Shown: positions 1,938 through 17,437 of the stretch, piece by piece
How the letters are laid out: every line of letters starts with the position of its first letter
Position numbering within the stretch: position 1 is the first letter of the stretch
Position numbers and translations under genes: made by a program
Notes under the pieces: generated by a model
What the model was told of the DNA's origin: nothing
Databases searched by the model: none
The model's input: only the letters and a program-made list of their open reading frames with translations
Source of the DNA: a virus
Virus record (IMG/VR): IMGVR_UViG_3300032046_000119
Coordinates: 1 to 33,931 of that record
DNA length: 33,931 nucleotides
Strand: one strand, 5' to 3'

Positions 1938-2010
1938 GCTTCAGTAGCTCAGTTGGTAGAGCACCAGATTCCAAATCTGGGTGTCGGAGGTTCGAGACCT
2001 TCCTGGAGTG
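1938..2010 (+). tRNA. tRNA-Trp (CCA)
   Basis: Full cloverleaf: acceptor GCTTCAG/CTGGAGT, D-arm GCTC-AGTTGGTA-GAGC, anticodon arm CCAGA-TTCCAAA-TCTGG giving CCA, T-arm GGAGG-TTCGAGA-CCTTC. The 3' CCA is not fully encoded. Confidence 0.93.
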
Positions 2011-2025
2011 CAAACAATTAAAAAT

Positions 2026-2096
2026 GGTCCTGTGTCCGAGTGGTTAGGAGGCGGTCTGCAAAACCGTTTACGTTGGTTCAAATCCAATCGGGACCT
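2026..2096 (+). tRNA. tRNA-Cys (GCA)
   Basis: Acceptor GGTCCTG/CGGGACC; anticodon arm GCGGT-CTGCAAA-ACCGT gives GCA. T-arm TTGG-TTCAAAT-CCAA. Discriminator T, as usual for tRNA-Cys. CCA not encoded. Confidence 0.92.
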
Positions 2097-2105
2097 CAAT
2101 AAAAC

Positions 2106-2179
2106 GCCTCTATGTCGGAATTGGTATACGAGTCATTCTTAGAAAATGAATTTTACAGGTTCGAGTCCTGTTGGAGGTA
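2106..2179 (+). tRNA. tRNA-Leu (TAG), short variable loop
   Basis: Acceptor GCCTCTA/TGGAGGT; anticodon arm TCATT-CTTAGAA-AATGA gives TAG (Leu, CUA codons). T-arm ACAGG-TTCGAGT-CCTGT. The D-arm (TCGGAATTGGTATACGA) is Leu-like, but the variable region is only about five bases, whereas bacterial tRNA-Leu normally has a long variable arm. The tRNA may be a reduced phage form. Confidence 0.85.
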
Positions 2180-2209
2180 CAAAAAAAATAAAAAATATTT
2201 TACAAATTG

Positions 2210-2241
2210 TTTGGCAAATCAAAAGTGATTACATATCTTTG
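2210..2241 (+). promoter_or_regulatory. Bacteroidota-type promoter, leaderless start
   Basis: TTTG at 2210-2213, 20 nt, TATCTTTG at 2234-2241, then TGAT and the ATG at 2246. Very good match to both boxes. Confidence 0.75.
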
Positions 2242-2245
2242 TGAT

Positions 2246-2446
2246 ATGGAAATAACAATTAACATACCTGATGGTGTTCTTAATAGAATGAAAGAACTCA
2301 AAATTACAGACAAAAATATTCAAAAAGAAGTTCTAATTGATTTTATAAAAGATTCTTTGGATACAGATTACTTAAACGGTATGTCCAATAAATTCAGAAA
2401 ATGGACATTAAATAAAGAAAATATTAAAGTTTATTTGGCAGATTGA
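2246..2446 (+). CDS. Small protein, 66 residues, unknown
   Basis: Start is set by the TATCTTTG promoter that ends four bases before the ATG; an in-frame upstream start lies before the promoter and is unlikely. The protein begins with a beta-strand-like MEITINIPDGVLNRM followed by a Lys-rich helical region, ending in NIKVYLAD. This outline recalls small DNA-binding or antitoxin-like proteins, but no family signature is visible and no partner toxin is adjacent. It lies between tRNA genes, and its 3' end contains the -33 box of the next promoter. Confidence 0.6.
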   Translation: MEITINIPDGVLNRMKELKITDKNIQKEVLIDFIKDSLDTDYLNGMSNKFRKWTLNKENIKVYLAD

Positions 2447-2465
2447 AATAAAATTCATAGATTTG
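2434..2465 (+). promoter_or_regulatory. Bacteroidota-type promoter for tRNA/ncRNA operon
   Basis: TTTG at 2434-2437 (inside the end of the preceding gene), 20 nt, TAGATTTG at 2458-2465. Transcription would begin near 2470 and run through the structured leader and the following tRNAs. Confidence 0.65.
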
Positions 2466-2469
2466 TAAG

Positions 2470-2640
2470 AGAAACAACGGGGTAGGAAGTAAGAGGTTGG
2501 TGTCCTACTCCCGTGAAGAAAGAAGAAGTTCATTGAAATTAAAATATTGTGGTGGTAAGAAACGGGAAACTCGTAAAGTGCATTAACCTGTTGACATAAG
2601 ATGGTGAAACGAGAGTGTGTGTCAGCTACTTAACTACAAA
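2470..2640 (+). ncRNA. Structured noncoding leader of the tRNA operon
   Basis: About 170 nt without a plausible gene, directly after a good promoter. It begins with a strong hairpin, CGGGGTAGGA paired to TCCTACTCCCG around a purine-rich loop (about 2478-2512), followed by GTGGTGGTAAGAAACGGGAAACTCG and other paired segments. No class is recognised. It could be a processed tRNA-operon leader or an independent small RNA. Confidence 0.5.
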
Positions 2641-2645
2641 TAAAT

Positions 2646-2719
2646 GGTGACTATAGCTCAGTTGGTAGAGCAAAGGTTTGTGGTACCTTGTGCCATGGGT
2701 TCAATTCCCATTAGTTACC
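2646..2719 (+). tRNA. tRNA-His (GTG)
   Basis: Anticodon arm AAGGT-TTGTGGT-ACCTT gives GTG. Acceptor GTGACTA/TAGTTAC. An extra G at 2646 faces C73 at 2719, the G-1:C73 identity pair of tRNA-His. T-arm ATGGG-TTCAATT-CCCAT. Confidence 0.93.
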
Positions 2720-2731
2720 CAAAAAAAATAT

Positions 2732-2805
2732 AGTTAATTAGCTCAGTTGGTTAGAGCAATTCCCTGATACGGAATAGGTCATTGGTTCGAGTCCAATATT
2801 AACTA
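2732..2805 (+). tRNA. tRNA-Ile (GAT)
   Basis: Acceptor AGTTAAT/ATTAACT; D-arm GCTC-AGTTGGTTA-GAGC; anticodon arm ATTCC-CTGATAC-GGAAT gives GAT; T-arm ATTGG-TTCGAGT-CCAAT; discriminator A. Confidence 0.93.
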
Positions 2806-2810
2806 CATAT

Positions 2811-2883
2811 CGCGGGATGTGGAAATTGGTCATCCGCTCGGTCTCATAAGCCGAGATTACAGGTTCGAGCCCTGTTCCCGCAA
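2811..2883 (+). tRNA. Initiator-type tRNA-fMet (CAT)
   Basis: Anticodon loop CTCATAA gives CAT. The acceptor is CGCGGGA/TCCCGCA: bases 2-7 pair, but C1 faces A72, the mismatch that marks bacterial initiator tRNA and allows formylation. The D-stem has purine 11:pyrimidine 24 (G:C), another initiator trait. The anticodon stem has two of the three initiator G:C pairs (29:41 and 30:40) and a U31:G39 wobble instead of the third. The 5' and 3' ends closely resemble E. coli tRNA-fMet. It sits among ordinary tRNAs in the same operon; a second CAT tRNA at 4313-4386 has a normal acceptor stem and is the elongator type. Confidence 0.88.
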
Positions 2884-2891
2884 CAACAAAA

Positions 2892-2950
2892 GGGTAGAAT
2901 ATTCGTAAGGGCCTTTCCTGAAAGATGGCTAGCTAGGCCCGTGTCTACCC
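2892..2950 (+). ncRNA. Structured RNA element between tRNAs, unknown
   Basis: Fifty-nine nt closed by a perfect seven-base-pair stem GGGTAGA/TCTACCC, with a second six-base-pair stem GGGCCT/AGGCCC inside. Its ends look like a tRNA acceptor stem, but there is no T-loop (TTCRA) or D-arm. It lies exactly between tRNA-fMet and tRNA-Glu. Confidence 0.5.
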
Positions 2951-2958
2951 TGATTTTT

Positions 2959-3030
2959 GGTCCCATCGACTATCGGTTAGGTCGTCAGGTTTTCATCCTG
3001 GAAAGTCGGGTTCGATTCCCGGTGGGACTA
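2959..3030 (+). tRNA. tRNA-Glu (TTC)
   Basis: Acceptor GGTCCCA/TGGGACT; anticodon arm TCAGG-TTTTCAT-CCTGG gives TTC; T-arm TCGGG-TTCGATT-CCCGG; discriminator A. Confidence 0.9.
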
Positions 3031-3032
3031 CG

Positions 3033-3122
3033 ACACATAAACTTCGGTACCCATACCGCTGACGGTGGGCTAAGTAAGATACAAATTTCGTACCGCGGGA
3101 AGTAGAATGCCGAAGAGTGTGT
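3033..3122 (+). ncRNA. Structured RNA element between tRNAs, unknown
   Basis: About 90 nt closed by ACACA/TGTGT and CTTCGG/CCGAAG, with an inner hairpin CCCA..CCG-CTGA-CGG-TGGG (3050-3069). There is no tRNA T-loop. Unknown class, in the same operon as the flanking tRNAs. Confidence 0.5.
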
Positions 3123-3126
3123 TAAT

Positions 3127-3280
3127 AGTCAGGTGGTGGAATGATAGACACATAGTGACACGCACGGCAACCTTGAATAAGTGCACTTTGAAAAGGCAAT
3201 GCGAATGATGAAGAACACTACCTCACTGTGCGTAGGTAAAATTCAAAGTGTTCATGCAGGTTAGAATCCTGTCCTGACTA
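3127..3280 (+). tRNA. tRNA-like gene with ~80-nt insertion, anticodon uncertain
   Basis: The two ends are tRNA: acceptor AGTCAGG (3127-3133) with CCTGACT (3273-3279), D-arm like GTGGAATGATAGACAC, and T-arm GCAGG-TTAGAAT-CCTGT (3256-3272). The total length is 154 nt, about twice normal. Between D-arm and T-arm there is a structured insert; CACTTTGAA (3184-3192) and TTCAAAGTG (3242-3250) form a nine-base-pair stem. If GCACT/AGTGT is the anticodon stem the loop would be TTGAA.., anticodon GAA (Phe), interrupted by roughly 50 nt, with about 30 further extra nt before it. The insert is far too short for a group I intron. It may be an interrupted tRNA or a tRNA-like regulatory RNA. Confidence 0.5.
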
Positions 3281-3286
3281 CTATAT

Positions 3287-3350
3287 CTAACCAAGATTTA
3301 CTACGATACGGGCTCATACCTGTTGGTTAGGGGTGACGATCAGGAAAGAC
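3287..3350 (+). ncRNA. Structured RNA element before tRNA-Asp, unknown
   Basis: CTAACCAA (3287-3294) pairs with TTGGTTAG (3323-3330) around CGGG-CTCATA-CCTG (3309-3322), an arm that resembles a CAT anticodon arm. A second hairpin, ATCAG-GAAAGA-CTGAT, follows. There is no T-arm. It may be a degenerate tRNA or a processing element. Confidence 0.4.
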
Positions 3351-3359
3351 TGATAACTT

Positions 3360-3432
3360 GGTCCCGTGGTTGAATGGTTACAATTCCACCCTGTCACGGT
3401 GCGAGATACGGGTTCGAATCCCGTCGGGACCG
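3360..3432 (+). tRNA. tRNA-Asp (GTC)
   Basis: Acceptor GGTCCCG/CGGGACC; anticodon loop CTGTCAC gives GTC; T-arm ACGGG-TTCGAAT-CCCGT; discriminator G, as usual for Asp. Confidence 0.9.
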
Positions 3433-3456
3433 CAAAACATTTTAAAAAAATATATT

Positions 3457-3726
3457 ATGAAAAAATTTGAAGATTTAGAGTTTGAAAAAATTGAAGATGC
3501 ACCTTTCCAAATTGGTGTGAAGTGTCGAATGATGTTTGAAAATGGATACGGTGTATCTGTTGTTTCTCATACACATTCATATGGTGGTAAAGATGGTTTG
3601 TTTGAAATTGCCGTTTTAGGTAAAGACGGTGACATAACCTACGATACGCCTGTAACAAATGATGTGATTGGATATTTAAATCCAGAAGAAGTTACAGAAA
3701 TTATGGATCAAGTGCAGTCTTTATAA
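3457..3726 (+). CDS. Conserved phage-type protein, 89 residues, unknown
   Basis: The start at 3457 (MKKFEDLEFEKIED) is chosen because the longer open frame runs back into the tRNA-Asp gene. Acidic protein with a run typical of a small beta-rich fold: NGYGVSVVSHTHSYGGKDGLFEIAVLG, then DGDITYDTPVTNDVIGYL and a short C-terminal helix. Similar sequences are familiar as hypothetical proteins of large phages; no function is known to me. It may be co-transcribed with the tRNAs upstream, since no promoter box lies in the short gap. Confidence 0.7.
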   Translation: MKKFEDLEFEKIEDAPFQIGVKCRMMFENGYGVSVVSHTHSYGGKDGLFEIAVLGKDGDITYDTPVTNDVIGYLNPEEVTEIMDQVQSL

Positions 3727-3737
3727 AAAAAATTGTT

Positions 3738-3745
3738 TATATTTG
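3738..3745 (+). promoter_or_regulatory. TATATTTG -7 box, leaderless start
   Basis: TATATTTG followed by TACT and the ATG at 3750; same four-base spacing as the other early genes. Confidence 0.65.
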
Positions 3746-3749
3746 TACT

Positions 3750-4028
3750 ATGACTGACGAACAACGAAAAGCTTTAGATAACATTATGGATTGGTTTGAC
3801 TTTGAAAGGGTTCACAAAACCATGAGATCCTTACGATGGGAGTGGTTGGGTACTGTAGAGGGAATACCTTGTTTAGGTGAGATTAAAGAAAGGGCAAGAG
3901 GGTTATTAACCGACTCCATTCAACGAGAAACAAGTGTCGGATCTGGAGGTTTTCAAGTAACCTACATTCCAGTAGAAGGATTTTTAAAACTTGAATTTGT
4001 AGTGTCCGAATGGGACTCTTTAATGTAA
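3750..4028 (+). CDS. Conserved phage-type protein, 92 residues, unknown
   Basis: Starts MTDEQRKALDNIMDWFDFERVHKTM, an amphipathic helix, and continues with RWEWLGTVEGIPCLGEIKERARGLL and a beta-rich C-terminal half (GSGGFQVTYIP..LKLEFVVSEW). This two-part layout is seen in small uncharacterised phage proteins; no catalytic motif is evident. A TATATTTG box ends four bases before the start codon, so it is probably an early gene made from a leaderless message. Confidence 0.7.
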   Translation: MTDEQRKALDNIMDWFDFERVHKTMRSLRWEWLGTVEGIPCLGEIKERARGLLTDSIQRETSVGSGGFQVTYIPVEGFLKLEFVVSEWDSLM

Positions 4029-4073
4029 AAATGTATAATTGTTTAATTGTTTCACTAATAAAAAAAAAGAAAA

Positions 4074-4304
4074 ATGAGTAAAGGACAAACTAAGGGGCGT
4101 TACATTTGTAAAATAGGTTTTTACGATATCTACGCAAAAGACACAATGAAAAAAAGTACGGAAAGAGGTGGTAAACTAAAAGTTTCCGCAACTGATTATC
4201 AAATCTATCATTCAAAAAATTTGAAGGAGAAAGGTTTTAAAACCAAAGATCTTGCGGTTGCTAAGGCAACTGAGATGATGAATAAACACATGGTTAAATC
4301 CTAA
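4074..4304 (+). CDS. Small basic protein, 76 residues, unknown
   Basis: Starts MSKGQTKGRYICKIG; Lys-rich, with a likely beta-strand start and a C-terminal helix (DLAVAKATEMMNKHM). No family recognised. It lies 45 bases after the previous stop and just before tRNA-Met; no promoter box of either class is obvious, so it is probably read from 3738. The upstream A-rich stretch (AAAAAAAAGAAAA) is the kind of leader that Bacteroidota use in place of a Shine-Dalgarno. Confidence 0.65.
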   Translation: MSKGQTKGRYICKIGFYDIYAKDTMKKSTERGGKLKVSATDYQIYHSKNLKEKGFKTKDLAVAKATEMMNKHMVKS

Positions 4305-4312
4305 ACTAATCG

Positions 4313-4386
4313 GGTCTTTTAACTCAGTTGGTTAGAGTGCGACACTCATAATGTTGAAGTCTCTGGTTCAAGACCATAATGGACTA
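4313..4386 (+). tRNA. tRNA-Met, elongator type (CAT)
   Basis: Acceptor GGTCTTT/ATGGACT with one internal mismatch; D-arm ACTC-AGTTGGTTA-GAGT; anticodon arm CGACA-CTCATAA-TGTTG gives CAT; T-arm TCTGG-TTCAAGA-CCATA with one mismatch. Base pair 1:72 is G:T, not the initiator C:A mismatch. A lysidine-modified Ile tRNA (AUA codons) cannot be excluded. Confidence 0.8.
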
Positions 4387-4401
4387 CTAATTTAAAAAAA
4401 T

Positions 4402-9640: not shown

Positions 9641-9671
9641 TTGACAGATCAAAATAAATGTCATATCTTTG
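9641..9671 (+). promoter_or_regulatory. Strong Bacteroidota-type promoter for the large ncRNA
   Basis: TTGACA at 9641-9646, about 20 nt after the TTG element, TATCTTTG at 9664-9671. Both boxes are near-consensus. No gene starts after it, which points to an RNA product beginning at about 9676. Confidence 0.75.
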
Positions 9672-9675
9672 TGAA

Positions 9676-10570
9676 ACAAATCAGGAAAAGTCCTGAAAAG
9701 TTCTTTGAAAAATTAGATTATCCATTCAGGAGTAAGAAATGAAACTGATAAAGATATTGGGCCGTGTATAGTCCATAAAATAAACTACGAAAGTAGGATA
9801 AAGTGAACCCCCAAGTGTAACGGGTTTGCGTCTTAATAGTCTTCGGAATATTGAGGTCGAGTACACAGGCGAGATACCATAAAATCTTTAGTACCGAGGC
9901 CAACGGTGTAGGAAAAGTGATTTTATGACGAGGTGATGTGGGTCATCTTGTTGAGGAGGGAACTCTAATAGGAATAACTCGTAGGGATGATGCAAGAACC
10001 AATATTTCCAATATTGTTATTGCGGGTTCCAATATTAAAGGGTACTTAAAACCGAAAGGTATGACAACAAACAGGTGGTGCTGACATTGTCCTTGATAAA
10101 TCTCTACCAAGAGATTAATCTCGAAGTAATCTTAAAATATGGGAATGGGGACATTTCAAGGAGTAGTTGAGTATTTTGTTGTTCAAAAGATGACGAAGCC
10201 CGAGACGGACCACTACTTCTACAATCTACAACACAAAAACTTTACAGAAATTAAGTAAAACTAAGAACTATAAAGCAAAAGTGTTCGTCAGGTAATAGTG
10301 AAAGGTGACTACATAGTAATGAGCCGTTCATTGCACGAGAGGATCGCAAGTCTGATCGTATTCTTACCAAACACCTCTAGTCCCGCAAGGACCAACTGGG
10401 AAGGCATTCTCGGAGAGAGTCGAGTAATAAGAGAGTAACTGTTATCTTAAGAAGTGATTGGTCTAACCAATCGTCACTGAGAAATACCATTCAAAAGATG
10501 GTGGATACGAAGGGAAACAATAATCCTTCTAAAGTTTTCTCACTAAAAACTGTAATCTCAGGTTTTTTTT
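9676..10570 (+). ncRNA. Large structured noncoding RNA (GOLLD/ROOL-type candidate)
   Basis: About 890 nt with no credible reading frame on either strand, a strong promoter in front and a terminator at the end. It is more GC-balanced than the coding DNA and full of hairpins: CTAC-GAAA-GTAG (GNRA loop, 9785-9796); AATAgTC-TTCG-GAaTATT; ATAAAATC/GATTTTAT around a 35-nt inner domain; CAATATT-TCC-AATATTG nested in GAACC/GGTTC; TCTCT-ACCA-AGAGA; GTCC-CGCAA-GGAC; TTGGT-CTA-ACCAA continued by AGTGA/TCACT; ACCAT/ATGGT and GAAGG/CCTTC near the 3' end. Length, phage setting and closeness to tRNA and tmRNA genes match the giant phage RNAs GOLLD and ROOL, which form large multimeric particles; their role in phage is unknown. 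Assignment to either class is inference; a new class is equally possible. Confidence 0.75.
10544..10570 (+). terminator. Terminator of the large ncRNA
   Basis: AAAAACTG, six-base loop, CAGG and a run of eight T. A stronger terminator follows at 10594. Confidence 0.6.
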
Positions 10571-10593: not shown

Positions 10594-10617
10594 AGGGACA
10601 ATTAGTCCCTTTTTTTG
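10594..10617 (+). terminator. Second intrinsic terminator
   Basis: AGGGAC-AATTA-GTCCCT followed by seven T. It backs up the terminator 25 bases earlier. Confidence 0.85.
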
Positions 10618-10690: not shown

Positions 10691-10703
10691 GGAGTTTAGT
10701 TTG

Positions 10704-11087
10704 TGGAGGCGGAGGGCCTCGAACCCTCGTCCAGTCTATCCTGTCAGATAAGAACTACATGTTTAGGTTGGTATTTTCTAATACCCCAAAATAGTTGATT
10801 TGTTCTTCACCATCGTAAATCAACAACCAATGGTTACCATTCGATTTAGGGTTCAATAGTAATCCACCACAACTACGACTTCTGTTGCTAGGTTATATGT
10901 CTGCCGACCCCCCGTTTCCGTATCTTATTAAGCTACAGTAACTTCAGAACCTCTTAGTAAACCAAGAGTTTCCATTTTGTTTAGCACATTGCCAGTTGTA
11001 TTCTTAAGTCAGTTCTTAAAGAGATTAACTCAGTCCCTACATGCCCTTATTCCTCAGCCAATACCTGTCAAATCCAAAAACGCCCCC
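10704..11087 (-). ncRNA. ssrA: tmRNA
   Basis: A one-piece transfer-messenger RNA of 384 nt. The 5' end GGGGGCG followed by TTTTTGGATTTGACAGG is the conserved tmRNA start; the 3' end has T-arm GAGGG-TTCGAGG-CCCTC and CGCCTCC, which pairs with the 5' end, then discriminator A. The inner tag frame ends in two TAA stops (10925-10930) and reads ...METLGLLRGSEVTVA, so the tag would end TVA rather than the usual ALAA. The exact resume codon cannot be fixed by eye. tmRNA with SmpB frees stalled ribosomes and tags the unfinished protein for proteolysis, usually by ClpXP/ClpAP. The plus-strand frame over it is a shadow. A TATCTTTG promoter lies upstream at 11119-11126. Confidence 0.92.
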
Positions 11088-11164: not shown

Positions 11165-12310
11165 ATGAGAAAAAGACTTCTTATCGAAAATGATGTCTCA
11201 GAGTTAGATGACTTCCAAAAAATACTTCTTTTAAACAAAAGAAAGTTATCTTCTGACGAAGTTGAATTCAAAAGTGATAAATATGAAGACAAGATTGATA
11301 TTAATAGTGTTAGAGTACAACATGATGGTTTGTTATTTGACTTTGATGGTTTAGATCAATTTTTAAAATTTTTTTTTCCTGAAGTTTTTGAAGACGGGTC
11401 TGATGGTGAGTGGGATGCTCGAAACTATGATCAAATGTATCATGGTTCTTATGATTGGGAATATGAATGTTCTGATAGATCTACTAATGATTGGAGTGAA
11501 GGTTATGTTTTAGGTTACTTTTGTAATCAAGCTAGTTTAAAACTAAAAGAGTTGTTAAAAATAATTGCACCTTCTTTGGCGGATAGTATTTCAGAAGACG
11601 GTAGAAGAATTGACGATGAATCAGAAATAACAGATGTTTTAGATAAATTTTTTAGTAGTCTTGGTGATGAAGCTAATGATATAATATGTTCAGCAAAAGC
11701 AAATGCAACTGAAGAAGGTGCTAAACAAGCAATCTTAACTGCCTACTGTGAAACACTTTCTGAATTTGGTATTGAGAAGTGGGGTAAATGGTGTTTTGGT
11801 TTGTATTTTATAAGTTGGGGAAATTTGGTCCAACTTTATGTTGAAAATGGTGAATTTGACAAAAGGGCTATTGATGTGATACTTGAAAGTATAGATAAGA
11901 AATTTAGACACACTCTTCCAGATCCTTACGAGATGGAAGGTTATTTTATGGATAATGATATTTTTAACTCTGAATCTTGTCAAAAATTAGAAGATCTAAT
12001 TGATGTGTATATAGAAAAAGCTGAAGAAGACTTTAATCCTGACTATATAGTAGTAATGGAAAAACTTACTAAGTTAGGTCTTTTTTCTAATCGTGGTGTA
12101 GAAATACCAGGACAAAAAGGATTAAGAATTAAAGTTGAGAAAGTTGACACCAAAACTTTGGAAGTAAAATATATTGTCGGGTCAAATAGTTATTTTGGAG
12201 ATAGACAATACGGGTTATCTACTGTTGATTCAGTAATTGCAATGGCAACCCAACCAAGTTTATTCAACCCAGCTGACTTTAGAATACAACCTGGTCAATT
12301 AAGACGATAA
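11165..12310 (+). CDS. Acidic protein, 381 residues, unknown
   Basis: Starts MRKRLLIENDVSELDDFQKI, an N-terminal helix of the kind seen in several proteins of this window. The body is acidic and rich in aromatic residues (EWDARNYDQMYHGSYDWEYE, about 82-101) with a helical middle. The C-terminal part (about 310-381) contains LRIKVEKVDTKTLEVKYIVG, a beta-like segment. No enzyme motif or known domain is seen. TATTTAT six bases before the start indicates late expression, so a structural or internal head protein is plausible. Its last 16 bases overlap the M20 peptidase gene in convergent orientation. Confidence 0.65.
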   Translation: MRKRLLIENDVSELDDFQKILLLNKRKLSSDEVEFKSDKYEDKIDINSVRVQHDGLLFDFDGLDQFLKFFFPEVFEDGSDGEWDARNYDQMYHGSYDWEYECSDRSTNDWSEGYVLGYFCNQASLKLKELLKIIAPSLADSISEDGRRIDDESEITDVLDKFFSSLGDEANDIICSAKANATEEGAKQAILTAYCETLSEFGIEKWGKWCFGLYFISWGNLVQLYVENGEFDKRAIDVILESIDKKFRHTLPDPYEMEGYFMDNDIFNSESCQKLEDLIDVYIEKAEEDFNPDYIVVMEKLTKLGLFSNRGVEIPGQKGLRIKVEKVDTKTLEVKYIVGSNSYFGDRQYGLSTVDSVIAMATQPSLFNPADFRIQPGQLRR

Positions 12311-13320
12311 CGATCTTTTAATATCTCATATAGTCTATAGCCATCCTCATCATCGATGTAAAATTGATTTTCATCGTAAATATCTGTAATTATAAACCCA
12401 TTCTTTTCTTCAATAACATCAATAGATGATAATTGGTGTACATCATCATAAAATGGGCTTTCATCATCAAACAAAGTCGTTGTGGTAGTTATTGTTTCTG
12501 GTTCTGTTTTGAACTCATACTTTTTTAATCCCAAACTATCAACCATGTTTTTTCCTGCAACAATTGCTCTTTCAACATCATCAATACAAACAAACTCATT
12601 TGCTGTGTGCATATTATAATAACCACAAGACATGTTTATACAGGATAAATCTGATTTTTGTTTCATAATCATAATATCTGTGTATGGATGACTCTGAACC
12701 ATCATTTCATTTTTAAACCCTTTGGTAATTGATCTTAATGAAATATTAAAGAATTCACCATCTTTATCAAACAATACTGTTCCCATACAACTATATGAAA
12801 TTAAGTGGTCTCCTGGTGCATCGTATTGGGTACAATAACCAACATCGTTTAAAAACTCTGTATTAACCATTTTTGACCCATTACAACCTGTTTCTTCTGA
12901 CACAAAAAATGCAACCTTAACTTTATCTAATTGACGAAGTAATTCTAAACAAATATAAATACCGCATTTATCATCACCACCAATACCAGTTGGGTTTTTG
13001 TCTTTGTCGTACGCCTTTAAACATAATACTTGTTTATCACCAAATTCTTTTCCGAATGTGTAAGGACGAAGAAGATATTCTTCTTTAACTATGATTTCAT
13101 CAACAAGGTTATGAACCGTGTCGGTGTGTGATATAAACATTGGGTAATACTCACCCTCATCTAATGTTCCTTTTGTAACATAGATATTTTTATGGTCATC
13201 ACACACCACTTCAATTCCCTCCATTTGTGATAATTCGTCCATTAGGTATTTCACCATCTTATCTTCTTGATAAGTTTTGGATGGGACAGAAAGAAGTTCC
13301 TTAAATTTATTTAGATTCAT
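12295..13320 (-). CDS. M20-family zinc aminopeptidase/dipeptidase-like
   Basis: A 341-residue peptidase in the M20/M28 clan (PepT/carboxypeptidase G2-like). The zinc and catalytic positions are visible: SHTDTVH (His65, Asp67), GGDDKCG (bridging Asp116/117), SEETGCNGSK (catalytic Glu142, zinc Glu143), an Asp near 167 (YDAPGD), and HTANEFV (His238). Members remove residues from short peptides, using two zinc ions. The start at 13320 (MNLNKFKELL) is preferred to an in-frame TTG at 13338, because a minus-strand TATCTTTG box (13336-13343) overlaps that codon. Phages seldom carry such enzymes. It lies beside the ClpC-like gene, and could degrade peptides released by Clp proteolysis; this link is inference. 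Confidence 0.85.
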   Translation of the reverse strand: MNLNKFKELLSVPSKTYQEDKMVKYLMDELSQMEGIEVVCDDHKNIYVTKGTLDEGEYYPMFISHTDTVHNLVDEIIVKEEYLLRPYTFGKEFGDKQVLCLKAYDKDKNPTGIGGDDKCGIYICLELLRQLDKVKVAFFVSEETGCNGSKMVNTEFLNDVGYCTQYDAPGDHLISYSCMGTVLFDKDGEFFNISLRSITKGFKNEMMVQSHPYTDIMIMKQKSDLSCINMSCGYYNMHTANEFVCIDDVERAIVAGKNMVDSLGLKKYEFKTEPETITTTTTLFDDESPFYDDVHQLSSIDVIEEKNGFIITDIYDENQFYIDDEDGYRLYEILKDRYRLN

Positions 13321-13335
13321 TTCAAATTGTTTCCA

Positions 13336-13343
13336 CAAAGATA
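13336..13343 (-). promoter_or_regulatory. TATCTTTG -7 box (minus strand)
   Basis: TATCTTTG about 15 nt upstream of the peptidase ATG, in the gap after the ClpC-like gene, so the peptidase can be transcribed on its own. Confidence 0.55.
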
Positions 13344-13366: not shown

Positions 13367-15406
13367 TTATTCTTTCTTTTTTCTTGTTTTTTTGGCCTTT
13401 TCTTCTTTATTAGAAACTAAAACCTCATCATTTTCCACTTTTAAAACATAATCCTTATTCTCTTCAATCTCCATCATTAAAATCTTTTCAGAAATTAAAT
13501 CCTCAATTTTATCTTGAATAGCTCTTTTGATTGGACGAGCTCCAAATGTTTCATCAAACCCTACTTTAGATATATAATCCACAAGATCTTGTTCGTATGT
13601 AAAATTATATTTTTTCTCACTAACTCTTTTTAATAATTTGTCAATTTCAAGTTTTGTAATTTTGTCAATATGTATTTTTTCTAATGAGTTAAAAATAATA
13701 ACATCATCAATACGATTTAAAAATTCAGGAGCAAAAAACTTCTTTAATTCTTTTTTCAAAACCTCTTGTTTTTCTTCTTCCATAACAATCTCACTTTTGT
13801 TTGTTTTAAACCCAACTCCAGTTCCAAAATCTTGTAATCTTCTAACGCCAATATTAGAAGTCATAATGATTAAACAATTTTTAAAGTTGATTTTACGACC
13901 CAATGAATCTGTGATATGACCATCATCTAACAACTGAAGAAGTGTTGAAAAAATATCTTTGTGTGCTTTCTCAATCTCATCAAACAATACAACAGAGTAA
14001 GGTTTGTTTTTAACCTGTTCTGTTAGTTGTCCACCTTCATCGTGACCAACATATCCTGGAGGTGAACCAATCAAACGAGAAATAGTGTGTTTCTCTTGGT
14101 ATTCACTCATATCCACACGGATCATATTATCTTCACTACCAAATATCTCTTTTGCCAATTGTTTTGCCAAATATGTTTTACCAACACCAGTTGATCCCAA
14201 GAAAATAAATGAACCAATTGGTTTGTTTGGGTCTTTAATTCCCATTCTATTTCTGCGAATAGCCTTTGTGATTTTCAATACCGCTTCTTCTTGACCAATA
14301 ACTTTTGAACTTAAATTATTTGTAAGATTTATTAAACTATTTCTTTCATCAACATTAATGTTTGAAATTGGAATTTTAGTCATATTTGAAACCACTTCAT
14401 ATATTAATTCTTCTGGAATGGTTCGTTTACTACTCCTTAAATGTTCCTCAAACTTTTTCTTTTCATCATCAAGTTTAACCAAAATGTTTCTTTCGCGATC
14501 ACGAAGTTCCGCGGCTTGTTCGTAGTCTTGTCTTTTAATTACATCAAGTTTTTCTTGTTTAATTTTATTTGCCTCTTCTTTAAGATTCTCAATTTCTTGT
14601 GGTAGTTTTATGTCAATTTGCATTCTTGCCCCAACCTCATCTAAAATATCAAATGCTTTATCTGGAAATTCACGATCTGTAATATAACGATCCGCCAACT
14701 CAACAAATATCAATAATGTTTCATCGTCATAACTTACTTTATGGTGATCTTCATATTTTTCCTTACTTAATTTAAGAATTTCTAAAGTTTCCTCTTTTGT
14801 AGATGGGTCTACAATTACTTTTTGAAATCTTCTTTCTAATGCTCCGTCCTTCTCAAAGTTTGTCCTATATTCATCAAGAGTAGTCGCACCAATACATTGT
14901 ATCTCACCACGAGAAAGTGCCGGTTTAAATATATTTGAGGCATCTAATGAACCTGAACTATTACCGGCCCCAACTATTGTATGAATCTCATCAATAAATA
15001 AAATGATGTTGGGGGCATCCTGAAGTTCTTCAATAATTACTTTCATTCTTTCCTCAAACTGACCTCTGTATTTAGTTCCAGCAACTAACGAATTCATATC
15101 TAACGATACAATTCTCTTGTCCATTAAAGTTTTAGGACACTCACCGTTATGAATCATCATTGCAAGACCCTCAACGATTGCAGTCTTACCCGCGCCAGGT
15201 TCACCAATAATAATTGGGTTATTTTTCTTTCTTCTAGATAGAATTTGAGCAATTCTCAATATTTCTTTTTTTCTACCAATTACAGGGTCTAACTTACCCT
15301 CTTGAGCTAATTTGTTTAAATCCTTACTAAAATTATCTAACACAGGTGTACCTGTATCAGACTTTTTTTTTGATTTATCATTTCCTTCATCCATAAATTC
15401 TAACAT
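13367..15406 (-). CDS. clpC: ClpC-like AAA+ unfoldase without N-domain
   Basis: A 679-residue Hsp100 with two AAA+ modules. D1: Walker A GEPGAGKT (68-75), Walker B ILFIDE (135-140). A middle segment carries a UVR-like motif, QDYEQAAELRDRER (about 294-307), as in ClpC. D2: Walker A GSTGVGKT (405-412), Walker B VVLFDE (473-478). GVGFKT at about 531-536 contains the VGF tripeptide that docks ClpC/ClpA on ClpP. The repeat N-domain (about 140 residues) of cellular ClpC is missing: D1 begins after only about 40 residues. The protein would unfold substrates and could feed the host ClpP, but with other adaptor choice, since the N-domain binds adaptors. No ClpP gene is in the window. The C-terminus is basic (KAKKTRKKKE). 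It is divergent from dnaK. Confidence 0.93.
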   Translation of the reverse strand: MLEFMDEGNDKSKKKSDTGTPVLDNFSKDLNKLAQEGKLDPVIGRKKEILRIAQILSRRKKNNPIIIGEPGAGKTAIVEGLAMMIHNGECPKTLMDKRIVSLDMNSLVAGTKYRGQFEERMKVIIEELQDAPNIILFIDEIHTIVGAGNSSGSLDASNIFKPALSRGEIQCIGATTLDEYRTNFEKDGALERRFQKVIVDPSTKEETLEILKLSKEKYEDHHKVSYDDETLLIFVELADRYITDREFPDKAFDILDEVGARMQIDIKLPQEIENLKEEANKIKQEKLDVIKRQDYEQAAELRDRERNILVKLDDEKKKFEEHLRSSKRTIPEELIYEVVSNMTKIPISNINVDERNSLINLTNNLSSKVIGQEEAVLKITKAIRRNRMGIKDPNKPIGSFIFLGSTGVGKTYLAKQLAKEIFGSEDNMIRVDMSEYQEKHTISRLIGSPPGYVGHDEGGQLTEQVKNKPYSVVLFDEIEKAHKDIFSTLLQLLDDGHITDSLGRKINFKNCLIIMTSNIGVRRLQDFGTGVGFKTNKSEIVMEEEKQEVLKKELKKFFAPEFLNRIDDVIIFNSLEKIHIDKITKLEIDKLLKRVSEKKYNFTYEQDLVDYISKVGFDETFGARPIKRAIQDKIEDLISEKILMMEIEENKDYVLKVENDEVLVSNKEEKAKKTRKKKE

Positions 15407-15469
15407 ACTTATATTGTTTTACATTCAAAAACTAATAAATAAATTTACAAAAGTCCAATATTGTTATTT

Positions 15470-15497
15470 TGTCAGTATAAAAAAAAATATACTGACA
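15470..15497. promoter_or_regulatory. Perfect inverted repeat, operator candidate
   Basis: TGTCAGTATA (15470-15479), eight A, TATACTGACA (15488-15497): ten-base-pair perfect arms. It lies between the divergent clpC-like and dnaK genes and ends just before the dnaK -33 box. The layout is like the CIRCE heat-shock operator (nine-base arms, nine-base gap), but the sequence differs. Confidence 0.6.
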
Positions 15498-15499
15498 TA

Positions 15500-15530
15500 T
15501 TGACATGTTTTTTGAAATGGCATATATTTG
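15500..15530 (+). promoter_or_regulatory. dnaK promoter, Bacteroidota type
   Basis: TTGACA at 15500-15505 and TATATTTG at 15523-15530, 20 nt after the TTG. The leader to the ATG at 15578 is about 43 nt and A-rich, without a Shine-Dalgarno. Unlike the leaderless early genes, dnaK has a real leader. Confidence 0.75.
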
Positions 15531-15577
15531 GTATAAATGTGAAAAAAAATAAACATAAAAAATAAAATAATAAAAAA

Positions 15578-17437
15578 ATGGGAAAAATAATTGGAATTGA
15601 CTTGGGGACAACTAATTCGTGTGTTGCGGTAATGGAAGGAAAGGATCCTGTGGTTATTGCTAACAGTGAAGGAAAAAGAACCACGCCATCTATTGTAGGA
15701 TTTGTAAAAGACGGTGAAAGAAAAATTGGAGATCCGGCTAAAAGACAGGCAGTAACAAATCCTGATAAAACAATTTACTCAATTAAAAGATTTATGGGAA
15801 GTTCTTTTGATGATATTAAAAACGAAATCAGAAAAGTCCCTTATAAATTGGTTAAAGAAAATAACTCACCAAAAGTTCAAATTAATGATAGAACTTATTC
15901 GCCACAAGAAATCTCAGCTGCGATACTTCAAAAAATGAAACAGACTGCTGAAGATTATTTAGGGCAATCTGTAACTGAAGCTGTTATTACGGTTCCTGCT
16001 TATTTTAATGATGCCCAAAGACAGGCAACAAAAGAAGCTGGTGAAATCGCAGGTCTTACAGTAAAAAGAATTATAAACGAACCAACCGCAGCCGCTTTAG
16101 CGTACGGATTTGATAAAATGTCTAAAGATATGAAAATTGTGGTGTTTGACTGTGGTGGTGGAACTCATGATGTATCTGTATTGGAACTCGGCGATGGAGT
16201 ATTTGAAGTATTGTCAACTGACGGGGACACTCACTTAGGTGGGGACGACTTTGACCAAGTACTTATTGACTTTTTAGTTTCTGAATTTAAAAAAGAAAAT
16301 GGAATGGACATTTCAAAAGACCCAATGGCACTTCAAAGACTTCGTGAGTCCGCCGAAAAAGCAAAAATCGAATTATCTTCTTCACCACAAACTGAAATTA
16401 ATCTTCCTTATGTAACGGCAGATTCCACAGGTCCTAAACACTTGGTAATGACTATTACAAAATCTAAGTTTGATCAATTAACACAATCTTTAGTTAATAG
16501 AACAATCAAACCTTGTAAATCGGCTTTGGAGAATGCTAAGTTATCCCCATCTGATATTGATGAAATCATTTTGGTTGGTGGGTCTACTCGTATTCCTGCG
16601 ATTCAAGAAGCGGTTAAAAAGTTTTTTGGAAAAGAACCTTCAAAAGGAGTAAATCCTGATGAGGTAGTTGCTTTAGGGGCCGCAATTCAAGGTGGTGTAT
16701 TAGCGGGTGATGTTACAGATGTATTATTACTTGATGTGACTCCACTTTCGTTAGGTATTGAAACTATGGGGGGTGTGTTTACAAAATTAATTAATTCTAA
16801 CACAACGATACCAACTAAAAAATCTGAAATATTTTCTACGGCAGTAGATAATCAACCTATAGTTGAGATTCATGTCTTACAAGGAGAAAGAACAATGTCA
16901 AAAGATAATAGATCTATCGGCAGATTTAATTTAGATGGGATTCCACCGGCAAGACGAGGAACTCCACAAATTGAGGTAACTTTTGATATTGACGCGAATG
17001 GTATTATTAATGTTTCTGCGGTGGACAACGCAACAAATAAAGTACAATCTATTATAATTGAATCATCTTCAGGTTTATCTAAAGAAGAAGTTGAAAGAAT
17101 GAAACAAGAAGCGGAAATAAATGCCGATTCAGATAAAAAATTAAAAGAGGATATCGATACATTAAATTCAGCAGATTCTTTGATTTTCCAAGTTGGTAAA
17201 TCATTAGAGGATCTTGGGGATAAAATTAGTGAAGAAGAAAAATCTGAAATTAACTTAAAAGTTGATAAGTTAAGAGAAGCACATACTAAAAAAGAAATTT
17301 CTGAGGTTAAAACTTTGATGGAAGAAGTTAATAAAACATTCCAAGAAGTAAGTCAAAAGTTGTATGAACAAACAACACCAAACGACGAAATAACTGAAGA
17401 AGACTTCCAAAATGTTGAATTTGAGGAAGTAAAATAA
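15578..17437 (+). CDS. dnaK: DnaK (Hsp70) chaperone
   Basis: A full-length 619-residue Hsp70: ATPase domain with GIDLGTTNS (6-14) and the phosphate-2 motif DCGGGTHDV (191-199), linker [14 protein letters not shown], substrate-binding beta domain, helical lid and a C-terminus ending NVEFEEVK, close to the EEVD/EEVK ends of bacterial DnaK. Two residues in the phosphate-2 motif are unusual: Leu becomes Cys192 and Phe becomes His197. The helical lid is somewhat short compared with about 638 residues. DnaK folds proteins with DnaJ and GrpE; neither is in the window, so it would use host co-chaperones. It has its own promoter, an inverted repeat upstream and a terminator downstream. It is probably an acquired bacterial gene; Bacteroidota origin is likely but needs a tree. 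Confidence 0.97.

Follow-up and report, generated by a model that had tools for sequence, protein, structure and literature searches.

A GOLLD RNA with covarying putative cage contacts in a T4-like phage, probably of a Bacteroidota host

What is made from some 890 nt of phage DNA that hold no gene, and what might the product do during infection? The question is raised by positions 9676-10570 of the window, i.e. the whole stretch of 33,931 nt analysed here (IMG/VR record IMGVR_UViG_3300032046_000119), where an earlier note had proposed a giant structured RNA of the GOLLD/ROOL type or a novel class of the same kind. A scan with 4227 Rfam families gave a match to GOLLD (RF02032) at 10159-10564 on the plus strand with 332.2 bits (E 9.4e-95), and because this is more than twice the gathering cut-off of 150 bits and spans the full model (positions 1-416 of 416), the GOLLD half of the proposal is confirmed; the coordinates 9676-10570 proved correct to a few bases. 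We are highly confident that this RNA is GOLLD in identity and architecture, a judgement that excludes function. The class is already described and its structure solved, and the window copy is a well-formed member: it measures 889 nt from the inferred start to the model end (class members exceed 800 nt), and it is phage-encoded, the terminase, portal, head protease and major head protein of the window being T4-like.

By size, hairpin density and phage context on their own, the locus would also fit ROOL, which shares the size class and the phage home and likewise forms cages, or a giant-RNA class not yet described. However, among the GOLLD, ROOL, OLE, raiA and HEARO models that the note had suggested, GOLLD alone matched in the Rfam scan; the other four gave zero matches at Rfam thresholds in the window, and the only other long-RNA family found there was the tmRNA on the minus strand. 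ROOL and a novel class are thus already refuted, with a negligible probability left to them. That the stretch is instead a structured leader or cis-regulatory element of some gene downstream, or codes for a protein that escaped recognition, is suggested by its position and nothing more, and we consider it extremely improbable: terminators close the region, the next gene inward (the tmRNA) lies on the opposite strand, and no reading frame is kept. The stretch is indeed gene-free, as the note had it, in that the sole open reading frame of at least 60 aa fully inside it is one of 61 aa with a TTG start (9718-9903, minus strand), and no stop-free run exceeds 74 codons, where shuffled sequences average 80. 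A conserved frame among relatives, which would have spoken against a noncoding RNA, was looked for and none was found; most indels break the frame, and a coding region was ruled out on these grounds.

About 100 GOLLD relatives were gathered. With a DNA pattern built on the 3′ domain, 72 loci on viral contigs were retrieved, and with a second one, from the 5′ domain, 39 loci, mostly new, while five narrow or consensus-based patterns had zero matches in viral contigs. The 5′ region of the window (9670-10158) was matched by blastn in nearly all 3′-domain loci that were long enough. Contigs bearing relatives were up to 304 kb long, and the megaphages LR745206 (635 kb) and LR756502 (642 kb) carry GOLLD as well (RF02032 287 and 275 bits), with the same 5′-3′ domain order as the window and, in LR745206, a 5′ domain that blastn aligns to that of the window. 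Fourteen further loci across the diversity scored 270-335 bits with RF02032, all above the cut-off.

Covariation was assessed in 33 dereplicated sequences, i.e. the window and 32 relatives, and the elements of the RNA are as follows:

9676-10158, plus strand: GOLLD 5′ domain (putative cap domain of the cage), by blastn in relatives and covariation
9703-9707 with 10122-10126, plus strand: long-range helix that closes off the 5′ domain, with pairing in 98.8% of cells across the 33 sequences, mostly invariant
9785-9796, plus strand: GAAA tetraloop hairpin CTAC-GAAA-GTAG, with GAAA (9789-9792) in 32 of 33; candidate L11a
9878-9886 with 9919-9927, plus strand: nine-base-pair helix, seven of nine pairs with two-sided changes
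10159-10564, plus strand: GOLLD 3′ domain (RF02032 model 1-416), by Rfam and covariation
10204-10210 with 10283-10289, plus strand: pseudoknot helix crossing the first 3′-domain stem, 100% paired, four of seven pairs with two-sided changes
10221-10270, plus strand: variable A/T-rich linker joining the first 3′ stems to the core, 42-62 nt long and unconserved in the 33 sequences

In the 5′ domain, 104 consensus pairs are paired in 97.2% of cells and 71 of them show two-sided changes (shuffled mean 44.4, with 0 of 500 shuffles reaching 71); in the 3′ domain including pseudoknots, 99 pairs are paired in 98.5% of cells and 58 show two-sided changes (shuffled mean 34.5, 0 of 500 shuffles), the paired-cell values being biased in favour of the folds, which were derived from the same alignments. 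The two-sided counts and the agreement of the 3′ domain with the independent Rfam model support the fold beyond the paired-cell measure, and sliding the pair partners by 1-3 columns kills the signal. The hairpin-packed structure described in the note is thereby borne out, its call for covarying stems among phage homologues having been answered strongly in both domains, and its individual elements were recovered as well: the GNRA loop at 9785-9796, whose stem varies from CTAC/GTAG to CCAC/GTGG, a TTCG loop in a variable hairpin near 9840-9850, and the nine-base-pair long-range helix. Single-sequence folding energy was unexceptional (z -1.13) and, not being significant, was dropped as evidence. 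The 5′ domain has, close to its start (~9718-9745), a hypervariable block in which GOLLDs that are otherwise similar carry unrelated hairpins, as though cassettes had been swapped.

The solved GOLLD, env-38, is a homo-14-mer RNA cage by cryo-EM, in which L11a is a GAAA loop and the linker is a disordered loop in the interior (PMC12286853). The published contacts comprise B7 (L20 with J13/15 between chains), the self-kissing loops L21a (B8) and L21b (B9), and L27 with J24/26 (PMC12286853); a GC/CG dinucleotide switch in L21a was reported earlier. Published helix numbers were assigned here by position and sequence, and the correspondence is an inferred one:

G10275-C10347 and C10276-G10346, plus strand: kissing contact matching B7 (J13/15 with L20); 10276/10346 is C-G in 25 and G-C in 8 of 33 sequences, with zero exceptions
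10380-10392, plus strand: hairpin with palindromic loop matching L21a (B8); loop GC in 27, CG in 5 and other in 1 of 33
10399-10410, plus strand: hairpin matching L21b (B9); loop GC in 33 of 33
10504-10506 with 10555-10557, plus strand: tertiary helix matching L27-J24/26; 10506/10555 is U-A in 30 and A-U in 3 of 33

A covariation scan outside the nested fold picked C10276-G10346 and U10506-A10555. Since positions that make contacts between chains in the solved GOLLD covary here, many copies of the RNA would probably self-assemble, protein-free, into a closed RNA cage, in which the 5′ domain of the window would form the cap and whose stoichiometry may be other than 14. It has also to be considered that GOLLD functions as a single molecule or in small oligomers, e.g. 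by binding ribosomes directly, and that the cage is an in vitro state only; cages are known from in vitro work only, and a ribosome pull-down is cited in PMC12286853. But the covariation falls on loops whose pairing in the solved cage is exclusively between chains (the L21a dinucleotide and L20-J13/15), and we regard this alternative as unlikely. Compared with RF02032 and env-38 (PMC12286853), the window RNA is alike in its full 3′ domain, separate structured 5′ domain, length of ~890 nt, variable linker, GAAA loop in the 5′ domain, covarying L20-J13/15, GC/CG switch in L21a and phage encoding, whereas it differs in that the nearest tRNA is ~5 kb off, a convergent tmRNA lies 137 nt downstream, and the promoter is of Bacteroidota type. 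A useful addition is a large, alignable set of GOLLDs from Bacteroidota phages with both domains and with covariation support for the cage contacts; having a host-type promoter and defined ends too, it allows these contacts to be mutated pairwise.

The signals that bound the RNA are as follows:

9641-9671, plus strand: GOLLD promoter of Bacteroidota (sigma-ABfr) type, with TTG at 9641-9643, 20 nt and TATCTTTG at 9664-9671
10548-10570, plus strand: last GOLLD hairpin, in which 10548-10551 and 10561-10564 covary, then a T-run of eight (10563-10570)
10594-10617, plus strand: intrinsic terminator AGGGACAATTAGTCCCT with T-run, the hairpin at 10594-10610; close relatives have a similar hairpin and T-run after GOLLD

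A promoter is present where the note had placed it, at 9641-9671, but its reading as a near-consensus sigma-70 promoter did not hold, as such sites are no commoner than in shuffles (6 against 6.3 expected); it is better read as the Bacteroidota type, with the consensus TTTG/TANNTTTG (PMC6847099). The TAnnTTTG box and the TTG element align at the same position in the 33 dereplicated relatives, where the box count is not independent, the loci having been picked partly for TAnnTTTG at the right distance, and where TTG played no part in the choice. In the wider set, the box is present in almost every locus long enough to include it. The RNA would start near 9676, and it would end at the T-run (10570) or at the hairpin terminator (10594-10610), both terminators claimed by the note having been found. 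The promoter type, together with the top-ranked terminase matches, which are to Flavobacterium phages (25% identity), suggests that the T4-like phage probably infects Bacteroidota. A motif scan of genome contigs gave 7 matches, 0 of them with GOLLD by Rfam, and the host genome was not found in this way. From these sequence features we would picture a T4-like phage of a probable Bacteroidota host that transcribes its GOLLD gene from a host-type promoter into an RNA of ~890 nt ending at two stop signals, copies of which would assemble into the cage.

GOLLD genes are often near tRNA genes, and many relatives have a tRNA directly adjacent. The window itself holds nine tRNAs at 1938-4387 (ARAGORN), the nearest of which (4313-4387) lies 5.3 kb upstream of GOLLD. 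A tRNA with a CAU anticodon directly follows the GOLLD 3′ end in 8 of the 33 dereplicated loci and lies ~270-470 nt upstream of the -7 box in 4 of them; in the first set of loci, CAU was the anticodon of 14 of the 17 distinct tRNAs lying within 1.4 kb, the Fisher values being nominal only, as the loci are related. These tRNAs are taken as initiators because position 1 is unpaired in nearly all of them (ARAGORN cloverleafs), whereas it is paired in the elongator Met tRNAs that occur at other places in these loci. PMC12286853 notes env-38 as lying downstream of a Met-tRNA. The initiator as the one partner of GOLLD had to be weakened to "a tRNA fold", the second set containing array-embedded GOLLDs with other tRNAs. 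Whereas the window has no adjacent tRNA, LR745206 has tRNAs directly on both sides, an initiator that ends immediately ahead of the 5′ domain and, past the 3′ end, a Glu-like tRNA carrying a D-loop hairpin; Glu-like tRNAs follow the model end by ~9 nt in LR756502 and by ~13 nt in locus L090, and an initiator follows by ~18 nt in L055. Five array-type loci (L082, L084, L093, L095 and L114) have ordinary Gly or Leu tRNAs upstream. Immediately past the 3′ end of GOLLD they carry a 40-nt element (CGCAAG...AGAGGTTCGTTTCCTCTATTGCGAC), nearly identical among them, which resembles the acceptor stem and T arm of a tRNA whose D and anticodon arms are missing. Array-type relatives have no TAnnTTTG box and probably share the promoter of the array. 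tRNA-like genes with an extra D-loop hairpin flank GOLLD in LR745206 (locus L074, ~14260-14352, 15455-15549 and 15632-15721) and lie upstream of it in L035 and L064; in some of them the anticodon arm is tightly closed.

The new observation here is that a tRNA fold, be it initiator, Glu-like or an acceptor/T-arm remnant, lies ~10-25 nt past the GOLLD 3′ end in several relatives. An acceptor stem with T arm suffices for RNase P, and we accordingly propose, at about even chances, that RNase P cuts the GOLLD 3′ end where a tRNA fold lies within ~10-25 nt; RNase P would then make the 3′ end in those lineages and the terminator in the window. The competing explanation, that the fold is an accident of tRNA arrays without a role in making GOLLD, has a substantial probability, somewhat below even. 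It is favoured by the five array-type relatives with their ordinary Gly or Leu neighbours upstream and by the window clade, which has no adjacent tRNA, and it is opposed by the short 3′ spacing, which occurs in distinct lineages and with differing tRNA folds down to the acceptor/T-arm remnant. In the GOLLD tree, the 3′ tRNA arrangement is found in separate branches and is absent from the window clade. Returning to cleavage by RNase P, it is tempting to speculate, although we judge it rather improbable, that ancestral GOLLD was a two-part unit of cage RNA and 3′ tRNA fold, from which RNase P makes the cage monomer, that the fold, through its identity, couples the cage to the initiation of translation or to the handling of tRNAs in infection, and that the window clade swapped the tRNA for a terminator. 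The recurring fold is in any case a concrete and cheap lead on how GOLLD is produced and coupled.

As to function, the retention of GOLLD genes beside tRNA genes, together with the ribosome binding reported from the pull-down cited in PMC12286853, hints at a cage that would house translation components, e.g. ribosomes or tRNAs, or serve as their scaffold in infection, a role that we put forward as doubtful. A tRNA-linked role would not be universal, since the window copy has no adjacent tRNA. One GOLLD prophage RNA is reported to be dispensable for phage production (PMC7567579), and expression rising at lysis is among the features given for the class.

The tmRNA that the note had placed beside the giant RNA is real and lies outside GOLLD:

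10701-11087, minus strand: tmRNA gene, convergent neighbour of GOLLD (RF00023, 101.6 bits), with predicted tag GNVLNKMETLGLLRGSEVTVA

It was missed by ARAGORN at this position and begins 137 nt past the GOLLD 3′ end. This spacing and the convergent order, kept in many relatives, could suggest that GOLLD transcription regulates the tmRNA through antisense readthrough or interference, yet the distance between the two varies from ~0.1 to 6 kb, terminators stand between them, and array-type and megaphage loci show zero tmRNA nearby, which leaves such regulation very improbable. The predicted tag is unusually long (21 aa) and unlike the usual ...ALAA tags; dozens of relatives retain its frame and the pattern GNV.NK...GL.R....V.VA. 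Close to the tmRNA, the window encodes a ClpB/ClpC-like double-AAA+ unfoldase (13367-15406, minus strand) and a full DnaK (Hsp70; 15578-17437, plus strand), possibly forming a protein-quality module of the phage. An M42/M20-type aminopeptidase-like gene (12295-13338, minus strand) adjoins the unfoldase, and a small zinc-metallopeptidase-like protein with a Peptidase_M10/M54 match is encoded at 35-742 on the plus strand.
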